IMG/VR virus record: IMGVR_UViG_3300045921_000197
Coordinates: 1 to 21,602 of that record
Direction: 5' to 3' (one strand)
Origin: a virus
Length of the DNA stretch: 21,602 nucleotides
Of this stretch, positions 1 through 21,602 are shown piece by piece. The translations under genes were made by a program, and so were the position numbers. How positions within the stretch are numbered: the first letter of the stretch is position 1; each line of letters opens with the position of its first letter. The notes under the pieces were generated by a model. The model made no database searches, had not been told where the DNA came from, and saw only the letters and a list, made by a program, of their open reading frames with translations.

Positions 1-174
1 CACAAATATGATATTAATAAATTAATAAATTAAATATATAGTTAGGGCCACAAATATGATATTAATAAATTAATAAATTAAATATATAGTTAGGGCCACA
101 AATATGATATTAATAAATTAATAAATTAAATATATAGTTAGGGCCACAAATATGATATTAATAAATTAATAAAT
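1..174. repeat. Left-end tandem array of a 48-bp repeat
   Basis: Three exact 48-bp units start at 1, 49 and 97. A fourth, at 145, keeps only its first 30 bases before diverging into the sequence ahead of the first gene. Each unit has a regular plan: 12 bp (CACAAATATGAT), three 8-bp steps (ATTAATAA, ATTAATAA, ATTAAATA), then 12 bp (TATAGTTAGGGC). The GTTAGGGCCACAAAT junction is unusually G+C rich for this genome. The same array follows the large terminase gene at the right end. The role is not shown by sequence. An origin (iterons beside an A/T-rich unwinding region) or a terminase recognition site would fit. Confidence 0.97.
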
Positions 175-186
175 ACATTATATAAT
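36..186. other. Direct terminal redundancy (151 bp, matches 21452-21602)
   Basis: Positions 36-186 are identical to 21452-21602, so the window starts and ends with the same 151 bases. That is expected for a circular or circularly permuted genome cut inside a repeat array, or for a linear genome with short direct terminal repeats. The extra unit at 1-48 means the true copy number between the terminase gene and the first tail gene is uncertain; short-read assembly often miscounts such arrays. Confidence 0.85.
171..186 (+). promoter_or_regulatory. Promoter-like motif, copy 1 (upstream of tail-tip module)
   Basis: AAATACATTATATAAT matches 15 of 16 bases of the core found upstream of the genes at 5522 and 10150. 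It starts 41 bases before the ATG at 212, at the point where the last repeat unit diverges. Similarity does not extend upstream as it does between the other two copies. Placement at a module head suggests a promoter; this is inference. Confidence 0.45.
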
Positions 187-5470: not shown

Positions 5471-5500
5471 TATATAAATTAGTAAAATACATTATATTAT
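5471..5500 (+). promoter_or_regulatory. Promoter-like motif, copy 2 (upstream of tape measure)
   Basis: This 30-bp stretch matches 10118-10147 at 28 of 30 positions. The core AAAATACATTATATTAT at 5484-5500 is identical in both. It occupies the gap between the fibre gene and the tape-measure gene, its core starting 38 bases before the ATG. Conservation between non-coding stretches at the heads of two gene blocks points to a transcription signal. It does not match the Bacteroidota housekeeping consensus. Confidence 0.55.
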
Positions 5501-5521
5501 ATAAATATATTATAAGATAAT

Positions 5522-10117: not shown

Positions 10118-10147
10118 TATATAAAGTAATAAAATACATTATATTAT
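10118..10147 (+). promoter_or_regulatory. Promoter-like motif, copy 3 (upstream of capsid module)
   Basis: 28 of 30 bases match 5471-5500, including the identical core AAAATACATTATATTAT at 10131-10147. Only two bases separate it from the ATG at 10150, so a promoter here would give a leaderless or nearly leaderless message, or initiate further upstream than at the other copies. It stands at the head of the protease-capsid-tail tube block. Confidence 0.5.
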
Positions 10148-10149
10148 GT

Positions 10150-11094
10150 ATGGATAAATATTTAATTTCTATAGATGACGAATTAGGTGAAGATTTAGGT
10201 ATAAAATTAATATCATTTGTCAAAAAACCCGCTATATTAGTTAAAGGTATAGCATTTAATCGTAATTATAACGAATTAAAATTCAGTAAAGATGATGTTA
10301 AGATGAGAATTGTCGCACCCGCGATGATACCAATGGATATATATAGATATTCACCGGAAGAAGATTATGAATATGAAGTTAGATTTACTAAAGAAGTTAT
10401 AGAAAAAATTAGAGATAAGTTTATGAAAAACTTATCCAATAGAAATATTTTTAATTTAGAACATACGGATGAAATAGTACCGGCGTATATTCTAGAAACA
10501 TGGATAGTTGGTGATAAACCAGAGTTAGATAAATCTTACTCAGAATATGCTATAGATGTTCCTAGTGGTACATTGATGATTATGACACAAATAACAGATA
10601 GAGATTATTATAATAAACTAGTAGAAAATGAGCAATTTTCATATTCAATAGAAGGTTTTTTTGGTTTGGAGGATTTAAAATTTATCATGCAAAAAAATAA
10701 AAAAAAATTTATGGAACAATTGAAACTACCTGATGGACATCATCAAATAGACGACAAAATTTATTTTATTGAAAACGGTGAAGTTTTAAAAATTGAAAAA
10801 ATTACAAAAGAAGAAAAATCTAATTTTTTTGATAATAAAAATAATACAGAAAAAGAAGAAGATTTTGAAGAAGAAAAGGTAGATAGCAATGAAAATAATA
10901 TACTGAACGAAAGTGAAATTATTGCTATTTTACAACCCAAGTTTGATGAGATATATAAATTGATAGCTGATTTATCTTATAAAATAGAAAATATTATTGA
11001 AAATAAACAAGAAAAAGAAAATGTAACAGAAGATTATAAAATGAGTATAACCGATAAATTCAATAATCTTCAAAAATTTCTAAAAGGAAAATAA
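10150..11094 (+). CDS. XkdF-like prohead protease with C-terminal scaffold
   Basis: 314 residues. Residues 1-175 follow the XkdF-type phage serine protease layout: a His in FNLEHTDEIVPAYILETWIV (His105), a strand with VPSGTLMIMTQITD (Pro138 onward), then FSYSIEGFFG with Ser166 and Glu168. His105 and Ser166 are the likely catalytic pair. After residue 190 the protein becomes acidic and low in complexity, then forms a helical coiled coil (about 255-314) typical of a scaffold. Protease-scaffold fusions directly upstream of the major capsid gene are common in HK97-fold phages; the protease matures the shell and removes the scaffold. The capsid gene follows after an A-rich gap of 16 bases. An in-frame ATG at 11041 could allow a short scaffold product, but nothing else supports that. 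Confidence 0.7.
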   Translation: MDKYLISIDDELGEDLGIKLISFVKKPAILVKGIAFNRNYNELKFSKDDVKMRIVAPAMIPMDIYRYSPEEDYEYEVRFTKEVIEKIRDKFMKNLSNRNIFNLEHTDEIVPAYILETWIVGDKPELDKSYSEYAIDVPSGTLMIMTQITDRDYYNKLVENEQFSYSIEGFFGLEDLKFIMQKNKKKFMEQLKLPDGHHQIDDKIYFIENGEVLKIEKITKEEKSNFFDNKNNTEKEEDFEEEKVDSNENNILNESEIIAILQPKFDEIYKLIADLSYKIENIIENKQEKENVTEDYKMSITDKFNNLQKFLKGK

Positions 11095-15396: not shown

Positions 15397-15873
15397 ATGA
15401 ATTATTCTAGTAAGTTTTACAGAGATTTAAAATATGGTGAGATAGGTGAAAAAATTATATCATCTTATCTAATTGATAAGGGATATAATATATTAAATTT
15501 TAACAAAGATAAAGATTATGATATAAAGGTAGAAAAAAATGGTATTATTAAAACTTTAGAAATAAAAACAGATAGATATGAATTTTTTAAGAATAAAAAA
15601 ACTAACAACATGTTTATAGAAACGGAATGTAATGGTAAGAAAAGTGGTGTAAAAGCTACAAAAGCAGATTATTTAATATATTTTTACCCTGATTACGAAG
15701 TAGCTTATTTAATAAGTATTAATAATATTAATGAGTTATTAAGATTTGGAATAAGAAGTTCTTTCAGCGGTGATGGTGGTAAAGTTGTTGGTTATCTATT
15801 TAATAGATTTGAGTTCGGAAAATATTTTAAAATATTGAATATACCTAAAGATAAAATATGGGATTTAAATTGA
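15397..15873 (+). CDS. PD-(D/E)XK superfamily nuclease
   Basis: 158 residues. The conserved core is visible in order: a helix with Gly-Glu (LKYGEIGEKIISSYL, Glu18), the acidic Asp42 in KDYDIKVEK, and Glu55-x-Lys57 in TLEIKTDRYEFF. This is the restriction-endonuclease-like fold used by resolvases and recombination nucleases. The later part (NMFIETECNGKKSGVKATKA, DYLIYFYPDYEVAYLISI) matches small phage and Holliday-junction-resolvase-like members. It could resolve branched replication intermediates or trim DNA for packaging. It follows the terminator at 15284-15332 and precedes the polymerase-like gene by 42 bases, making a two-gene replication/recombination set. Active residues are intact by eye. 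Confidence 0.72.
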   Translation: MNYSSKFYRDLKYGEIGEKIISSYLIDKGYNILNFNKDKDYDIKVEKNGIIKTLEIKTDRYEFFKNKKTNNMFIETECNGKKSGVKATKADYLIYFYPDYEVAYLISINNINELLRFGIRSSFSGDGGKVVGYLFNRFEFGKYFKILNIPKDKIWDLN

Positions 15874-15915: not shown

Positions 15916-17505
15916 ATGAATAGCATTTTAGATAATATAAAAAAATCAGTTGAAAGTTTAGAATGGTCATCACCGAGTAAAATGAAAAAGGCTATAGAAC
16001 TTTGTATATCTATATATAATTTATATATATATGATGGTGGTGATTTTTCTTATTATAGAAGATTAAGTAAACAATACTTTATATCGATAATAAAAACTAA
16101 ATCTTACATTTATGAAATTAAGAATAATTTAATAATAAATAAAATATTAATACCCGATCCGTCGAATTCTTATGATGTCAAGAAAGGTAAAGGTAAAGCT
16201 TACAAATTTAATAATGATTTAATAAATGGAAATTACACTTTTATTAATGAAATAAGAAATAGAGTAAATGGAAGTGACATTAATTTAAATAATATAGAAA
16301 AATACTTAATTAATAATATTAATAATATTAATTTTCAATTAAACGAAAATGTATATAATTTATACAAATCAGTGTTAAATGGTAATATTAATAATGTTAA
16401 AATTGAGAAATATATAGAAAAATCCTTTAAAAAATTAAAATTCAAAAAAGAAGTCAATTATTTTATCGATAACTACAAATTAAATAGAAATGATATTAAA
16501 ATAAACAATGAGATAGATTTTAATTTTATATCTCTAAAATTGGAAAATGATGAAATTAGAGTTTCTTTAGAAAAAGGTATAGAATTAGCTAAAAAGAGTA
16601 ATAAAGATTTAATTTTATATAAAGATAAAGCTTATATAGAAAATATAAATGATTTTATAAAAAGAAAAGAAAGAGAAATAAAATTAATATTTAGAAAATG
16701 TGTATATGAGATTAATAATAATATTTTTAGAATAAATAGAAACGAAACTAATAGAAGATTGGATTATAATCTAACGAATATGAAAAATGAATTGTTAGAT
16801 TATTTAGAGTTAGATGGTGAAGAATTAGTTGAGATAGATATATCTAATGCTCAATTCGCTTTATTATCTTATATAGTTAAAGATTTAGATACCTCATTTA
16901 TCAAAAAAACGCAAGAAGGTTCATTATATAATGACGATAAAGATAATTGGTTTAGAATAGCTTTCGATAAAGTTAAAAAAGAACATGATTTATATAGAAG
17001 TAAATATCCAAAAACTATGAAATTTATAGATATTTACAAAAATAATTACGGTTATAAATATTTCAGTATTATGCTTCAGAATGTTGAAAGTTTAATAATG
17101 ATAGATTATTTATTACCTAATTTAATAAATAAATATGATATATTCACGATACATGACGCTATAAGAGTTAAAAAAAGTCAATTTATTGAAGTAAAGAAAG
17201 AAATGGAATTTTTATTTGATAAAATAGGTTTTAAATGTAATATAAGAAATAAAAAAAATAGTTTATATATTAAAAAAGAGACTGAAATAATAAATTACAA
17301 AGGTATAAAAAACGTTGAAATAGAAAAAATATCTTCAGATGATAAAAAATTATTTTTACGAAAAATAAAAGAATTACGGGATATAGGTTTTGAACCATCA
17401 GAATATTTAATATACTCTTTGAATATTTTTGATAAATATAAAAGTTGGTATATTTACAATAAATGGGTTGAAAAAGAAAGATATAAGTCAATAGAAAATT
17501 ATTAA
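15916..17505 (+). CDS. Polymerase-like protein with family-A/T7-type palm motifs
   Basis: 529 residues; the only replication enzyme candidate. Residues 276-320 read like the approach to family-A motif A: RRLDYNLTN (280-288), then a Leu-rich turn and EIDISNAQFALLS with Asp308, Ser310 and Gln313. In DNA polymerase I the last position is Glu (DYSQIE); in T7-like RNA polymerases it is Gln (DGSCxGIQ). Motif C is FTIHDAIRV with His413-Asp414. Between them MLQNVESLIMIDYLL (386-400) mimics the Gln...Met helix of polymerase I. The fingers (motif B) are short; only YKNNYGYKYFS, about 375-385, resembles the YG element, and the usual Arg/Lys pattern is unclear. The N-terminal 270 residues are charged and unassigned, with no 3'-5' exonuclease motif seen. 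Candidate roles: replicase, primase-like or RNA polymerase-like protein. GAGAAG before the ATG is a rare weak Shine-Dalgarno. Confidence 0.5.
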   Translation: MNSILDNIKKSVESLEWSSPSKMKKAIELCISIYNLYIYDGGDFSYYRRLSKQYFISIIKTKSYIYEIKNNLIINKILIPDPSNSYDVKKGKGKAYKFNNDLINGNYTFINEIRNRVNGSDINLNNIEKYLINNINNINFQLNENVYNLYKSVLNGNINNVKIEKYIEKSFKKLKFKKEVNYFIDNYKLNRNDIKINNEIDFNFISLKLENDEIRVSLEKGIELAKKSNKDLILYKDKAYIENINDFIKRKEREIKLIFRKCVYEINNNIFRINRNETNRRLDYNLTNMKNELLDYLELDGEELVEIDISNAQFALLSYIVKDLDTSFIKKTQEGSLYNDDKDNWFRIAFDKVKKEHDLYRSKYPKTMKFIDIYKNNYGYKYFSIMLQNVESLIMIDYLLPNLINKYDIFTIHDAIRVKKSQFIEVKKEMEFLFDKIGFKCNIRNKKNSLYIKKETEIINYKGIKNVEIEKISSDDKKLFLRKIKELRDIGFEPSEYLIYSLNIFDKYKSWYIYNKWVEKERYKSIENY

Positions 17506-17558: not shown

Positions 17559-17732
17559 ATGAAAAATTTAAAATTATTAAATAGTGTTTCAGTTAGAAAA
17601 AATGATATAATAAATGAAATTATATCTACTAATCTAATTTTTTTAAAAAGTATAAAAAAATTAGATAAAATGTACAAATTAAAAAACAAGATTATTCTTG
17701 ATAATTTAATAAAAATTTATCTTAAAAAATGA
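17559..17732 (+). CDS. Small hypothetical protein
   Basis: 57 residues starting MKNLKLLNSVSVRKNDIINE and ending in a basic helix (LIKIYLKK). Net charge is strongly positive; no membrane segment or metal motif. Its TGA stop overlaps the ATG of the next gene (ATGA), which supports real translation and coupling. It stands 53 bases after the polymerase-like gene. A nucleic-acid-binding or accessory role is possible from charge alone; I do not recognise a family. Confidence 0.5.
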   Translation: MKNLKLLNSVSVRKNDIINEIISTNLIFLKSIKKLDKMYKLKNKIILDNLIKIYLKK

Positions 17733-17914
17733 ATAGAAATGATTTCATTGAATATATTGAAAATAAAAGAGGTTGGGTAGATTTAATAGATATTCTTAAT
17801 TTAATATCTATATATACAGATGAATACGGCTTATTAAAAACTAATTTATCTATTGAAAATGAGTTAATTTATATGTATAATAAATTAAAAGAAGATAATA
17901 TTAAAAAAAATTAA
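17729..17914 (+). CDS. Small hypothetical protein
   Basis: 61 residues, acidic to neutral, with a Leu/Ile-rich helix (WVDLIDILNLISIYTDEYGL) and a second helix near the C-terminus (NELIYMYNKLKEDNIKK). No known motif. The start overlaps the preceding stop codon by 4 bases, so the two small proteins are probably made together. After it comes a 123-base gap carrying the palindrome and promoter described separately. Not recognised. Confidence 0.5.
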   Translation: MNRNDFIEYIENKRGWVDLIDILNLISIYTDEYGLLKTNLSIENELIYMYNKLKEDNIKKN

Positions 17915-17946
17915 TAAAAAAAATAATATATAATAATCATAAAAAA

Positions 17947-17968
17947 ACATTTTGTGTTACACATTTTG
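17947..17968 (+). promoter_or_regulatory. Operator-like repeat upstream of the accessory-gene promoter
   Basis: ACATTTTG occurs at 17947-17954 and again at 17961-17968. Centred between them is a perfect 11-bp palindrome, TGTGTTACACA (17953-17963). Such a compact arrangement 15 bases ahead of a promoter suggests a binding site for a regulator. No phage repressor gene is recognised in the window, so the binder would be a host protein or an unidentified phage protein. Confidence 0.4.
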
Positions 17969-17982
17969 CGTTTAAAAAAAAA

Positions 17983-18013
17983 TTGTATAATGATATTTAA
18001 AATATTAAATTTG
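17983..18013 (+). promoter_or_regulatory. Bacteroidota-type promoter
   Basis: TTG at 17983-17985 and TAAATTTG at 18006-18013 are 20 bases apart, matching the Bacteroidota housekeeping consensus (-33 TTTG/TTG and -7 TAnnTTTG). Transcription would begin near 18018-18022 and leave a leader of about 20 bases before the ATG at 18038. It probably drives the genes up to the terminase region. A TATAAT at 17986-17991 within the spacer is likely chance. Confidence 0.6.
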
Positions 18014-18037
18014 CAATAAAATATAAAACATAATATT

Positions 18038-18406
18038 ATGAATAAAATAAATGAACATATTAAAATTATCAAGAAAAATATGACTTATATACCTGATTTT
18101 CTTGATACAAAATCAGATTTAGATTTATGGTATATTATAAACTGTTGTAATGATATTATCATAGAACTTATAAATGATAATTTTATTGATGATATATCTA
18201 TAAATAAATTATCTAAGGAATATATTGATATAAACAAATATTTAAAAATTATAACATCTCCTGAAAAGTATTTTTTAATACATGTTTATTTATTAAATAA
18301 CATAGAAAATAGTATTAAATACTGCGAAAATCAAGAGTTATATGAAGCTTGTTCGAATTTAAAAAAATTAGAAAAAGAATTAAATAGAGATTTTTATGTA
18401 TTTTAA
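18038..18406 (+). CDS. Hypothetical helical protein, first gene after promoter
   Basis: 122 residues, all-helical by composition, no membrane segment. It has a cluster of aromatic and Cys residues (DLWYIINCCNDIIIELINDN) and a second helix pair (YFLIHVYLLNNIENSIKYCE). The last helix is charged (LKKLEKELNRDF). It is the first gene after the Bacteroidota-type promoter, so it is probably expressed early, perhaps in host takeover or regulation. The end overlaps the next gene by 11 bases. No family recognised. Confidence 0.5.
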   Translation: MNKINEHIKIIKKNMTYIPDFLDTKSDLDLWYIINCCNDIIIELINDNFIDDISINKLSKEYIDINKYLKIITSPEKYFLIHVYLLNNIENSIKYCENQELYEACSNLKKLEKELNRDFYVF

Positions 18407-18647
18407 AATATTTTTATTTACTTGGTTTTTTACAAATTTTGAACCTTTTCAGGTTTTTTTAGAAAAATTATTCATAACAATTAATGATAAAATTAATCAA
18501 TATAATAATTTAAAGATTATAAATAATCATTTATATAATATATTAAGTTGTCATAAATGCTTATCTTTTTGGGTTTGTATAATATCAACTGGTGATTTTT
18601 TATCATCTATATTACTTTCATTTATTGCAAATTTATTAAAAAAATAA
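18396..18647 (+). CDS. Small membrane protein with C-x2-C-x3-W motif
   Basis: 83 residues. Two hydrophobic ends, about 1-13 (MYFKIFLFTWFFT) and 57-80 (SFWVCIISTGDFLSSILLSF), flank a polar middle. Just before the second segment is Cys52-x2-Cys55-x3-Trp59 (LSCHKCLSFW). Short membrane proteins with a C-x2-C...FW element occur in many phages; their job is unsettled, and the motif could bind metal or form a disulphide. It overlaps the previous gene by 11 bases. It is a secondary candidate for a lysis or membrane-remodelling role. Confidence 0.5.
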   Translation: MYFKIFLFTWFFTNFEPFQVFLEKLFITINDKINQYNNLKIINNHLYNILSCHKCLSFWVCIISTGDFLSSILLSFIANLLKK

Positions 18648-18657
18648 TATTTTATAT

Positions 18658-18885
18658 ATGACAAAAAACGAAATAGAAAAAATAGAAGAGATTATAAATA
18701 ACAAATCAGATTATAGTAAATTTAACATAAAATGGTTGAAAAGTATATTAGAAAAATATGACCCTAATATTACTTATAATATATTCGACCAAAATGACAG
18801 CTGTCTTTGTAGCTTTTATAATAGAAAAAGGTATAAAGAAAATTTCATATCTTATTGGAATAATAAAAAAAATGAATATAAATGA
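18658..18885 (+). CDS. Small hypothetical protein with Cys-x-Cys motif
   Basis: 75 residues, helical start (MTKNEIEKIEEIINNKSDYS) and a C-terminal phrase NDSCLCSFYNRKRYKENFIS. I recall similar short proteins, with a Cys-x-Cys followed by a basic aromatic stretch, in Bacteroidota phages, where their role is unknown. Its TGA stop overlaps the start of the sigma-like gene (ATGA), so it is coupled to it and could act as a partner. That link is inference. Confidence 0.5.
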   Translation: MTKNEIEKIEEIINNKSDYSKFNIKWLKSILEKYDPNITYNIFDQNDSCLCSFYNRKRYKENFISYWNNKKNEYK

Positions 18886-19409
18886 CTTTAATAGATAAAG
18901 TTTATAAAGAAAGATATAAAGATATATTTATTTACACACAAAAGGCTATAAATTTTTATAAAAGAAGGTATGATGCACATGCTATCATAAGCGAAAGCTA
19001 TATTTACGCGTATAATAAAAATTATAAAATAGATATAACAGAAGATGAATTAGAAGGAGATATAAAAAGTTTTATTAAAAATACAATAAAATGGAGTAGA
19101 AGTTTTATTAATAACAATAAAAAATTAAATGATATAAATAAATCAGAATGTATTGACAGTATTAATTTATATTATGATGATTTTATTTTAGATGAGACTA
19201 TAATAAATAATCTAATAGAAGAATATTTAAAAACTTTAAACAGAATTGAAAAGAGGTTATTTGAAATTTATTATTATAAAGATATAAATACAAAAGAAAA
19301 AATAAGAAATTATTTAGGTATAAGTAATATTTCTGCACAAATGACTAATAAAGAGTGCAGAAGAATATATAATAGATTTAGAGAATACATTATAAAAAAA
19401 AATATATAA
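18882..19409 (+). CDS. Sigma-factor-like protein
   Basis: 175 residues. The C-terminal third reads like sigma region 4: LNRIEKRLFEIYYYKDINTK, then EKIRNYLGISNISAQMTNKE and a basic helix (CRRIYNRFREYI). This resembles the helix-turn-helix that binds the -35 box. The N-terminal section (YDAHAIISESYIYAYNKNYK) sits where sigma region 2 would be, followed by SFIKNTIKWSRSFINNN, also consistent with region 2 helices. The match is weaker than in cellular ECF sigma factors, so it may be a divergent phage sigma or a DNA-binding protein of similar build. It could direct RNA polymerase to the motif at 171, 5471 and 10118. It is coupled by ATGA to the previous gene. Confidence 0.5.
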   Translation: MTLIDKVYKERYKDIFIYTQKAINFYKRRYDAHAIISESYIYAYNKNYKIDITEDELEGDIKSFIKNTIKWSRSFINNNKKLNDINKSECIDSINLYYDDFILDETIINNLIEEYLKTLNRIEKRLFEIYYYKDINTKEKIRNYLGISNISAQMTNKECRRIYNRFREYIIKKNI

Positions 19410-19414
19410 ATAAT

Positions 19415-19723
19415 ATGAAACTAAAAGAATGTTATAAAGGTTATGTCGTTAATAAACTTATTAACGGTAAAATGATATGTTTAGATACTAATAATATAAA
19501 TAAAGATGAATATGAATGGTATTTTAAAAACGGGTTTTCTGAATTTTTTGAAAATTCGGAAAATAAAATAAATGACGATAAAATAACATGCTTAGATACT
19601 AATGATGTAAATGAGAATGAATGTAGTGAATGGTATTGTAAAAACGGGTTTATTGGATTTCCAAAAAATTCAGAAAATAAAATAATAAAATATAAAAACG
19701 ACGAAAATAATAAAAAATCATAA
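19415..19723 (+). CDS. Small protein with internal tandem duplication
   Basis: 102 residues. After an opening LKECYKGYVVNKLINGK, two copies of a unit of about 38-40 residues follow each other: MICLDTNNINKDEYEWYFKN... and ITCLDTNDVNENECSEWYCK..., both continuing NGF and ending NSENKI. The DNA of the two copies (about 19470-19571 and 19578-19685) is alike but clearly diverged, so the duplication is not recent. The 'KGYVV.....NGK.I.LD' opening resembles small Bacteroidota phage proteins of unknown role. The start lies 5 bases after the previous stop codon; AATACATTATA at 19384-19394 lies 31 bases upstream. Function unknown. Confidence 0.55.
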   Translation: MKLKECYKGYVVNKLINGKMICLDTNNINKDEYEWYFKNGFSEFFENSENKINDDKITCLDTNDVNENECSEWYCKNGFIGFPKNSENKIIKYKNDENNKKS

Positions 19724-21451: not shown

Positions 21452-21464
21452 ATATAGTTAGGGC

Positions 21465-21590
21465 CACAAATATGATATTAATAAATTAATAAATTAAATA
21501 TATAGTTAGGGCCACAAATATGATATTAATAAATTAATAAATTAAATATATAGTTAGGGCCACAAATATGATATTAATAAATTAATAAAT
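21465..21590. repeat. Right-end copy of the 48-bp tandem array
   Basis: Two full units start at 21465 and 21513, and a third, at 21561, keeps the first 30 bases. The array begins 13 bases after the large terminase stop codon, and those 13 bases (ATATAGTTAGGGC) are themselves the tail of a unit. The array then ends in the same non-repeat sequence (ACATTATATAAT) that follows the left-end array. One full unit fewer is present here than at the left end. Confidence 0.97.
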
Positions 21591-21602
21591 ACATTATATA
21601 AT

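Follow-up and report, generated by a model that had tools for sequence, protein, structure and literature searches.

How does a small tailed phage replicate its DNA when its genome shows no known replication gene? This question is raised by the window analysed here, which is the whole stretch of 21,602 bases and a complete virus record, and in particular by one open reading frame at 15916-17505 that an earlier, sequence-only reading had described as a divergent family-A/T7-like polymerase and as the sole replication enzyme candidate. The second of these claims was upheld by our scans: Pfam and PHROG searches of the window genes revealed no helicase, primase or other polymerase, and six-frame scans of the window and of its closest relative, the 27.6-kb collinear phage contig L173 (G001), returned no DnaB_C, Toprim_2, DNA_pol_A or Prim-Pol. 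Structural genes were recognised by the Pfam and PHROG scans (tail, tape measure, a Peptidase_S78_2 protease, capsid, portal and terminase), and nearly all window genes lie on the plus strand. Both contig ends have an exact 151-bp repeat in common (36-186 = 21452-21602), which lies within a 48-bp tandem array: this end repeat indicates that the genome is probably complete, with a length of ~21.45 kb and a circular or terminally redundant form, and hence that the lack of other replication genes is probably real. L173 exhibits no end repeat, which makes the lack of replication genes in that contig less secure. The array is AT-rich, is found between the terminase and tail genes and spans window positions 1-186 and 21452-21602, although the count of 48-bp units in the contig may not equal the true copy number:

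1-174, + strand: exact 48-bp tandem array, 3.6 copies, candidate iteron or origin (TRF score 348, 100% matches)
21452-21602, + strand: array copy at the opposite contig end, 151 bp identical to 36-186 (end overlap, TRF)

The polymerase gene and its parts are the following:

15916-17505, + strand: winged helix-turn-helix (wHTH)/family-A-like polymerase gene, 529 aa, ATG at 15916 to stop at 17505 (ORF, family alignments, AF2 model)
15973-16215, + strand: predicted wHTH, aa 20-100, candidate origin-binding domain (AF2, Foldseek; kept in the collinear phage L173)
16525-16701, + strand: IF3-N-like insert, aa 204-262, between wHTH and palm (Foldseek)
16756-16758, + strand: Arg281, counterpart of the Pol I GR motif, a template/primer contact (invariant in 42/42, hhalign)
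16837-16854, + strand: motif A, Asp308 to Gln313 (D, N and Q in 42/42; hhalign to Pol I DYSQIE)
16939-16968, + strand: motif B remnant, Lys342...Phe350-Asp, O-helix equivalent (K invariant; Arg and Gly lost)
17077-17088, + strand: Gln388-x2-Glu391, counterpart of the Pol I Gln before motif C (QG..AD; 42/42, hhalign)
17152-17157, + strand: motif C, His413-Asp414 (D in 42/42, H in 41/42)
17287-17502, + strand: low-confidence C-terminal tail, aa 458-529 (mostly pLDDT < 50)

Motif A reads VEIDISNAQFALLS and motif C reads FTIHDAIRV, whilst the C-terminal tail is without counterpart in L173, where the protein stops at 456 aa.

Relatives of the polymerase

Direct searches did not reveal the family to which this protein belongs: the polymerase gave no match in Pfam (including at the DNA_pol_A cut-off), PHROGs, NCBIfam, PADLOC or in phmmer against the PDB, nor was a match obtained in two scans of IMG/VR or when phages were searched by tblastn with the full-length protein. 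The entry point was a palm-only tblastn, which identified the 634-kb uncultured phage LR745206 (28%, E 7e-5) with an ORF of 418 aa that reads EIDISNSQPLFLS ... VKELTYKVLFG ... LQKAES ... ITVHDSI. Chained searches then led to huge phages and 47 IMG/VR contigs, followed by Hymenobacter plasmids and further viral contigs; a weak match to a Nostoc plasmid was also obtained, and tblastn with members of the window family in the phage collection identified huge phages only. In sequenced bacteria, family members occur at 29 loci, nearly all from Bacteroidota, and they often adjoin a tyrosine integrase (integrases account for 8 of 69 neighbouring ORFs), with DUF3871 and AAA_24 ATPase genes also found nearby: these neighbours indicate that the bacterial loci are integrated mobile elements. 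In PADLOC the family was not tied to any consistent defence family, and in the open-licence literature we found no paper describing it. The polymerase belongs to an apparently undescribed family that is widespread in mobile elements of Bacteroidota and in giant phages; our analysis names a replication candidate for phages without a recognised replication gene and for this family, which is found in prophages, plasmids and huge phages and is unnamed in the profile libraries searched.

The closest relative is that of L173, whose polymerase is 42% identical over its full length. In the tree these two group together (100/99), with Taibaiella soli L208 next (99/94), and a second scan aimed at this pair did not return a third close member; in phages with a related TerL the motif pair was absent from the stretches examined. 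The window and L173 phages have at least 12 (~13) proteins in common, and the polymerase is the best conserved of these (40% over 458 aa, E 3e-110), with roughly 25-37% identity for the others that give long matches. TerL similarity between the two phages is not detectable in spite of these common proteins, and the terminase has therefore been exchanged.

Several further members deserve mention. A tight polymerase subfamily (L083-L129, L137-L177) is found in uncultured phages of 595-735 kb and in numerous large phage contigs of IMG/VR, where it coexists with a full replisome. A very divergent family polymerase (L175, 5042-6241) is located on a phage fragment of 14 kb, where it runs opposite to portal and capsid genes resembling those of the window, an arrangement that suggests that related phages have exchanged the polymerase. 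In Tenacibaculum (L185, 7965-10022) the polymerase ORF extends into a C-terminal region that by eye appears GIY-YIG-like, perhaps a homing endonuclease fusion, and a Hymenobacter member (L183, 8181-9746) exhibits a Ser-rich insert between motifs A and B that arises from 21- and 27-bp repeats.

Conserved residues and profile comparison

The motifs initially assigned to the ORF (motif A with Asp308/Gln313 and motif C with His413-Asp414) are well supported by the family: eight residues are invariant in all 42 aligned members (R281, D308, N311, Q313, K342, Q388, E391 and D414), and G335, Y338, F350, P365 and H413 are kept in nearly all of them. The invariant residues correspond to the motifs of family A, namely motif T (GR), motif A, the Lys of the O-helix, and motif C together with the Gln that precedes it, with Arg281 pairing with the GRLSSSxPNLQNIP motif of Pol I in hhalign. 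The fingers are indeed reduced, as had been proposed: motif A to motif C comprises 106 residues in the window polymerase, whereas Pol I has 177 and T7 DNA polymerase 179. After motif B, the shortening is for the most part family-wide, with the Lys-to-Gln stretch spanning 46-52 residues in most members, whilst ~20 further residues are missing before motif B in the window polymerase and L173 (the A-to-B spacing is 34 in the window polymerase, 53 in Pol I and 53-57 in the compact members). The pair also departs from the family within motif B: the Arg at K-4 (37 of the 42 members have R or K there) is Tyr in the window polymerase and Tyr or Thr across the pair, and the motif-B Gly is lost in both (Asp in the window polymerase), with the K-x7-[YF] pattern of the O-helix retained (K342...F350). 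The absence of the motif-B Arg and Gly means that, judged on its residues, the window polymerase is a family-A-like homologue and not a canonical member of family A, and together with the loss of the ~20 residues it may have weakened or altered catalysis.

Five residues after the catalytic Asp, Gln is found in 42/42 members, at a position occupied by Glu in both Pol I and T7 DNA polymerase and by Gly in both T7 RNAP (G542) and N4 RNAP II. Gln313 had been read as a sign of a T7-type RNA polymerase, which does not hold, since the T7 RNAP equivalent is Gly542 and its own Gln sits at +7. As Asp +5 is the established steric gate of family A, the presence of a bulky Gln there would fit dNTP use.

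Profile-profile comparison led to the same side. Against a profile combining Pol I and T7 DNA polymerases, the family profile scored 54.9 in hhalign (E 7e-6, taken as one comparison), its 186 aligned columns running collinearly from motif T by way of A, B and Q to motif C, with reversed, shuffled and TerL controls scoring no higher than 20; the significant score depends on this mixed profile, as the comparison with Pol I alone was weak (E 0.058) and T7 DNA polymerases were needed. Against T7-type RNA polymerases, the alignment scored 29-32 and was confined to 35 columns in the neighbourhood of motif C. These comparisons favour homology to family A, with the window family apparently nearer to Pol I/T7 DNA polymerase than to T7-type RNA polymerase.

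Predicted structure

In order to gain a structural view of the protein we used an AlphaFold2 model run on the 42-sequence alignment (pLDDT 77.1, pTM 0.67, 188 residues at or above 90); a model from the single sequence (pLDDT 33.6) was set aside. The model comprises a winged helix (aa 20-100), a polymerase core of reduced size (aa 147-452) and the IF3-N-like insert. Thus, the 270 N-terminal residues that had been left unassigned contain two predicted elements. The secondary structure of the first (H20-39 E48-50 H52-58 H62-74 E78-80 E94-98) is that of the winged-helix region, and in Foldseek the N-terminal domain matches winged-helix and lambda-O-like N-terminal domains. The insert is a hairpin-helix-hairpin that matches the IF3 N-terminal domain 1tif (71 columns, rmsd 2.5, TM_target 0.68, 22% identity) and, with an rmsd of 2.0, 6o6d (Foldseek).

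The core resembles DNA polymerases. The top PDB rows in Foldseek are KlenTaq and the apicoplast polymerase, at modest E-values of 4e-3 and above, and the best 50 rows in VIA-align are all family-A DNA polymerases (50/50), with no RNA polymerase among them; the top match (Z 13.6, rmsd 3.6 over 246 residues) superimposes model residues 147-452 on Taq 423-832. The Taq matches start at residue 423, past the exonuclease-like domain, which agrees with the exonuclease having been reported as absent. A palm holding Asp308 and Asp414, which had been set beforehand as the test of the polymerase assignment, is predicted from fold and secondary structure: Asp308 is located within strand 302-309 and Asp414 within the 409-419 hairpin, the usual places in a palm. 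DNA polymerases are thus favoured by the profile comparison as well as by the fold, and of the initial description as family-A/T7-like it is the family-A type with its palm that stands, whilst the leaning towards RNA polymerase does not.

Comparison with known systems

Pol I and T7 DNA polymerase have in common with the window polymerase the palm and fingers fold, the motif order T, A, B, Q, C and the catalytic Asp pair; they differ from it by its lack of an exonuclease, the Gln in place of Glu at the steric gate, the shortened A-to-C span and the missing Arg and Gly of motif B. At the N-terminus the likeness is to lambda O and RepA, in that the window phage combines a predicted winged helix with a repeat array in its genome; wHTH initiators of the lambda O and RepA type are without a polymerase core, whereas the window protein carries one. 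ColE2 Rep and the AEP-type PrimPol proteins (pRN1, NrS-1) may serve as a functional analogy, being element-encoded proteins for both initiation and DNA synthesis, but their catalytic fold differs and the window genome gave no Prim-Pol match.

The nearest described relative is divPolA2, found in barbaviruses and other phages such as ICP1-like vibriophages: Yutin et al. (2024, PMC11348598) describe it as a divergent PolA that has no exonuclease, carries an N-terminal domain without assignment and accompanies a regular polymerase (PolB in barbaviruses), with a possible role in repair or as an RNA polymerase. Both are of ~400-450 aa, with a family-A palm, no exonuclease and an N-terminal globular domain replacing the normal thumb; the window family aligns collinearly with one divPolA2 sequence over 175 columns (hhalign, E 0.003) and the Barba31A 'DNA polymerase' matches the window model in Foldseek (E 2.4e-5). 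The motifs differ (DFKAFE for motif A and FDE for motif C in the representative AUR84708, compared to D-x-x-N-[SA]-Q and HD[SA] in the window family), as does the context: divPolA2 coexists with a regular polymerase, whereas the window polymerase is the only one recognised in its genome.

Possible role in phage replication

On balance we lean towards the view that the protein is a compact, exonuclease-less DNA polymerase of family-A type, joined at its N-terminus to a winged helix, and that it acts as the replication initiator of the phage, i.e. that it may both start DNA replication and synthesise DNA. This builds on computed results, namely homology and domain layout, conservation of the catalytic carboxylates, the lack of other recognisable replication genes and the strong conservation of the gene; an initiator with its own polymerase is the simplest reading because it makes use of both ends of the protein. 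In such a scheme the wHTH would bind the origin of the phage, for which the AT-rich 48-bp array is a candidate, and the palm would then extend a primer (the 3' end of a transcript, or one that is self-made) and open a D-loop, in a manner resembling that of Pol I at ColE1 or of Rep at ColE2. The protein would recruit the host replisome, and replication of the genome would subsequently fall to the helicase, primase and Pol III of the host, as the phage encodes none of these. Against the array as origin counts that it is without consistent counterpart near the gene in relatives: TRF around the polymerase gene detected no consistent iteron array there and in most relatives no array at all, although in Kapaibacteria L205 a 46-bp array lies 155 bp from the polymerase gene.

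A wider form of this proposal, which we offer tentatively and hold to be rather unlikely, is that small tailed phages and Bacteroidota elements share an undescribed class of initiators in which the winged helix binds the origin and a minimal family-A core starts synthesis, by a primer-independent or transcript-primed start, and so replaces a separate initiator, primase and polymerase. Two Hymenobacter plasmids with a family polymerase also encode a separate replication initiation protein, which means that the family polymerase need not be the initiator everywhere; together with the huge phages, which would not need it as a sole replicase, this indicates that its role may differ between elements. 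Should the wHTH and palm cooperate, the result would be a family-A initiator-polymerase, a combination of which we found no description, and the small size and missing exonuclease would make it a natural test of the minimal Pol I needed for catalysis.

Among the alternatives, the one that survives best, though we judge it unlikely, is an accessory or repair DNA polymerase as suggested for divPolA2, with replication performed by the host upon recruitment by some undetected small protein. The occurrence of divPolA2 alongside a regular PolB and in variable neighbourhoods (PMC11348598), the presence of the window family in huge phages and several small ORFs at 17559-18885 that remained without assignment in Pfam and PHROG would all fit this explanation. 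An accessory gene is nevertheless expected to vary or be lost, and here the gene is the only replication-like one and encodes the most conserved common protein in two small phages, which counts against such a role. That the protein is mainly a DNA-binding initiator, with a core that has degenerated in the window lineage and is now structural or regulatory, we regard as improbable: the shortened fingers and the missing motif-B Arg and Gly of the window protein and L173, along with the retained wHTH, point in this direction, but neither phage has lost any of the 8 family-invariant residues, among them the two catalytic Asp and the Lys of motif B. Finally, a single-subunit RNA polymerase of the T7/N4 type transcribing from the shared A/T motif is very improbable, since a weak PDB profile match (E 0.22) that pairs motifs B and C with N4 RNAP II, the RNAP role left open for divPolA2 by Yutin et al. 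(PMC11348598) and the three exact AATACATTATATNATNTA copies upstream of genes at 172, 5486 and 10133 are set against the invariant Gln where T7 and N4 RNAPs have Gly, the 35 profile columns aligned to RNAPs and the best 50 VIA-align rows being DNA polymerases throughout, so that the transcriptase once suggested to serve this motif is left without support.

Further observations on the window

The three exact copies of AATACATTATATNATNTA (172-189, 5486-5503 and 10133-10150) each lie shortly upstream of a gene start and are a possible phage promoter, with the pattern having been derived from the same copies and its significance thus not being independent. Directly upstream of the polymerase gene, the ORF at 15397-15873 (158 aa) exhibits a sub-threshold match to the PDDEXK_5 nucleases (E 0.0024) and also matches a PHROG of unknown function (E 8e-13); its product is possibly a partner nuclease of the polymerase. 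The ORF at 18882-19409 (175 aa) gave no match in profile and PDB searches and is weakly similar to the syntenic L173 ORF (26% over 73 aa); by eye its C-terminus has the look of a helix-turn-helix and its product could be a regulator. Two diverged 114-bp tandem copies (81% matches) at 19464-19685 lie within the ORF at 19415-19723. The best match of the terminase among deposited phages is to Nonlabens phage P12024S (48%), which suggests a host from the Flavobacteria/Bacteroidota.
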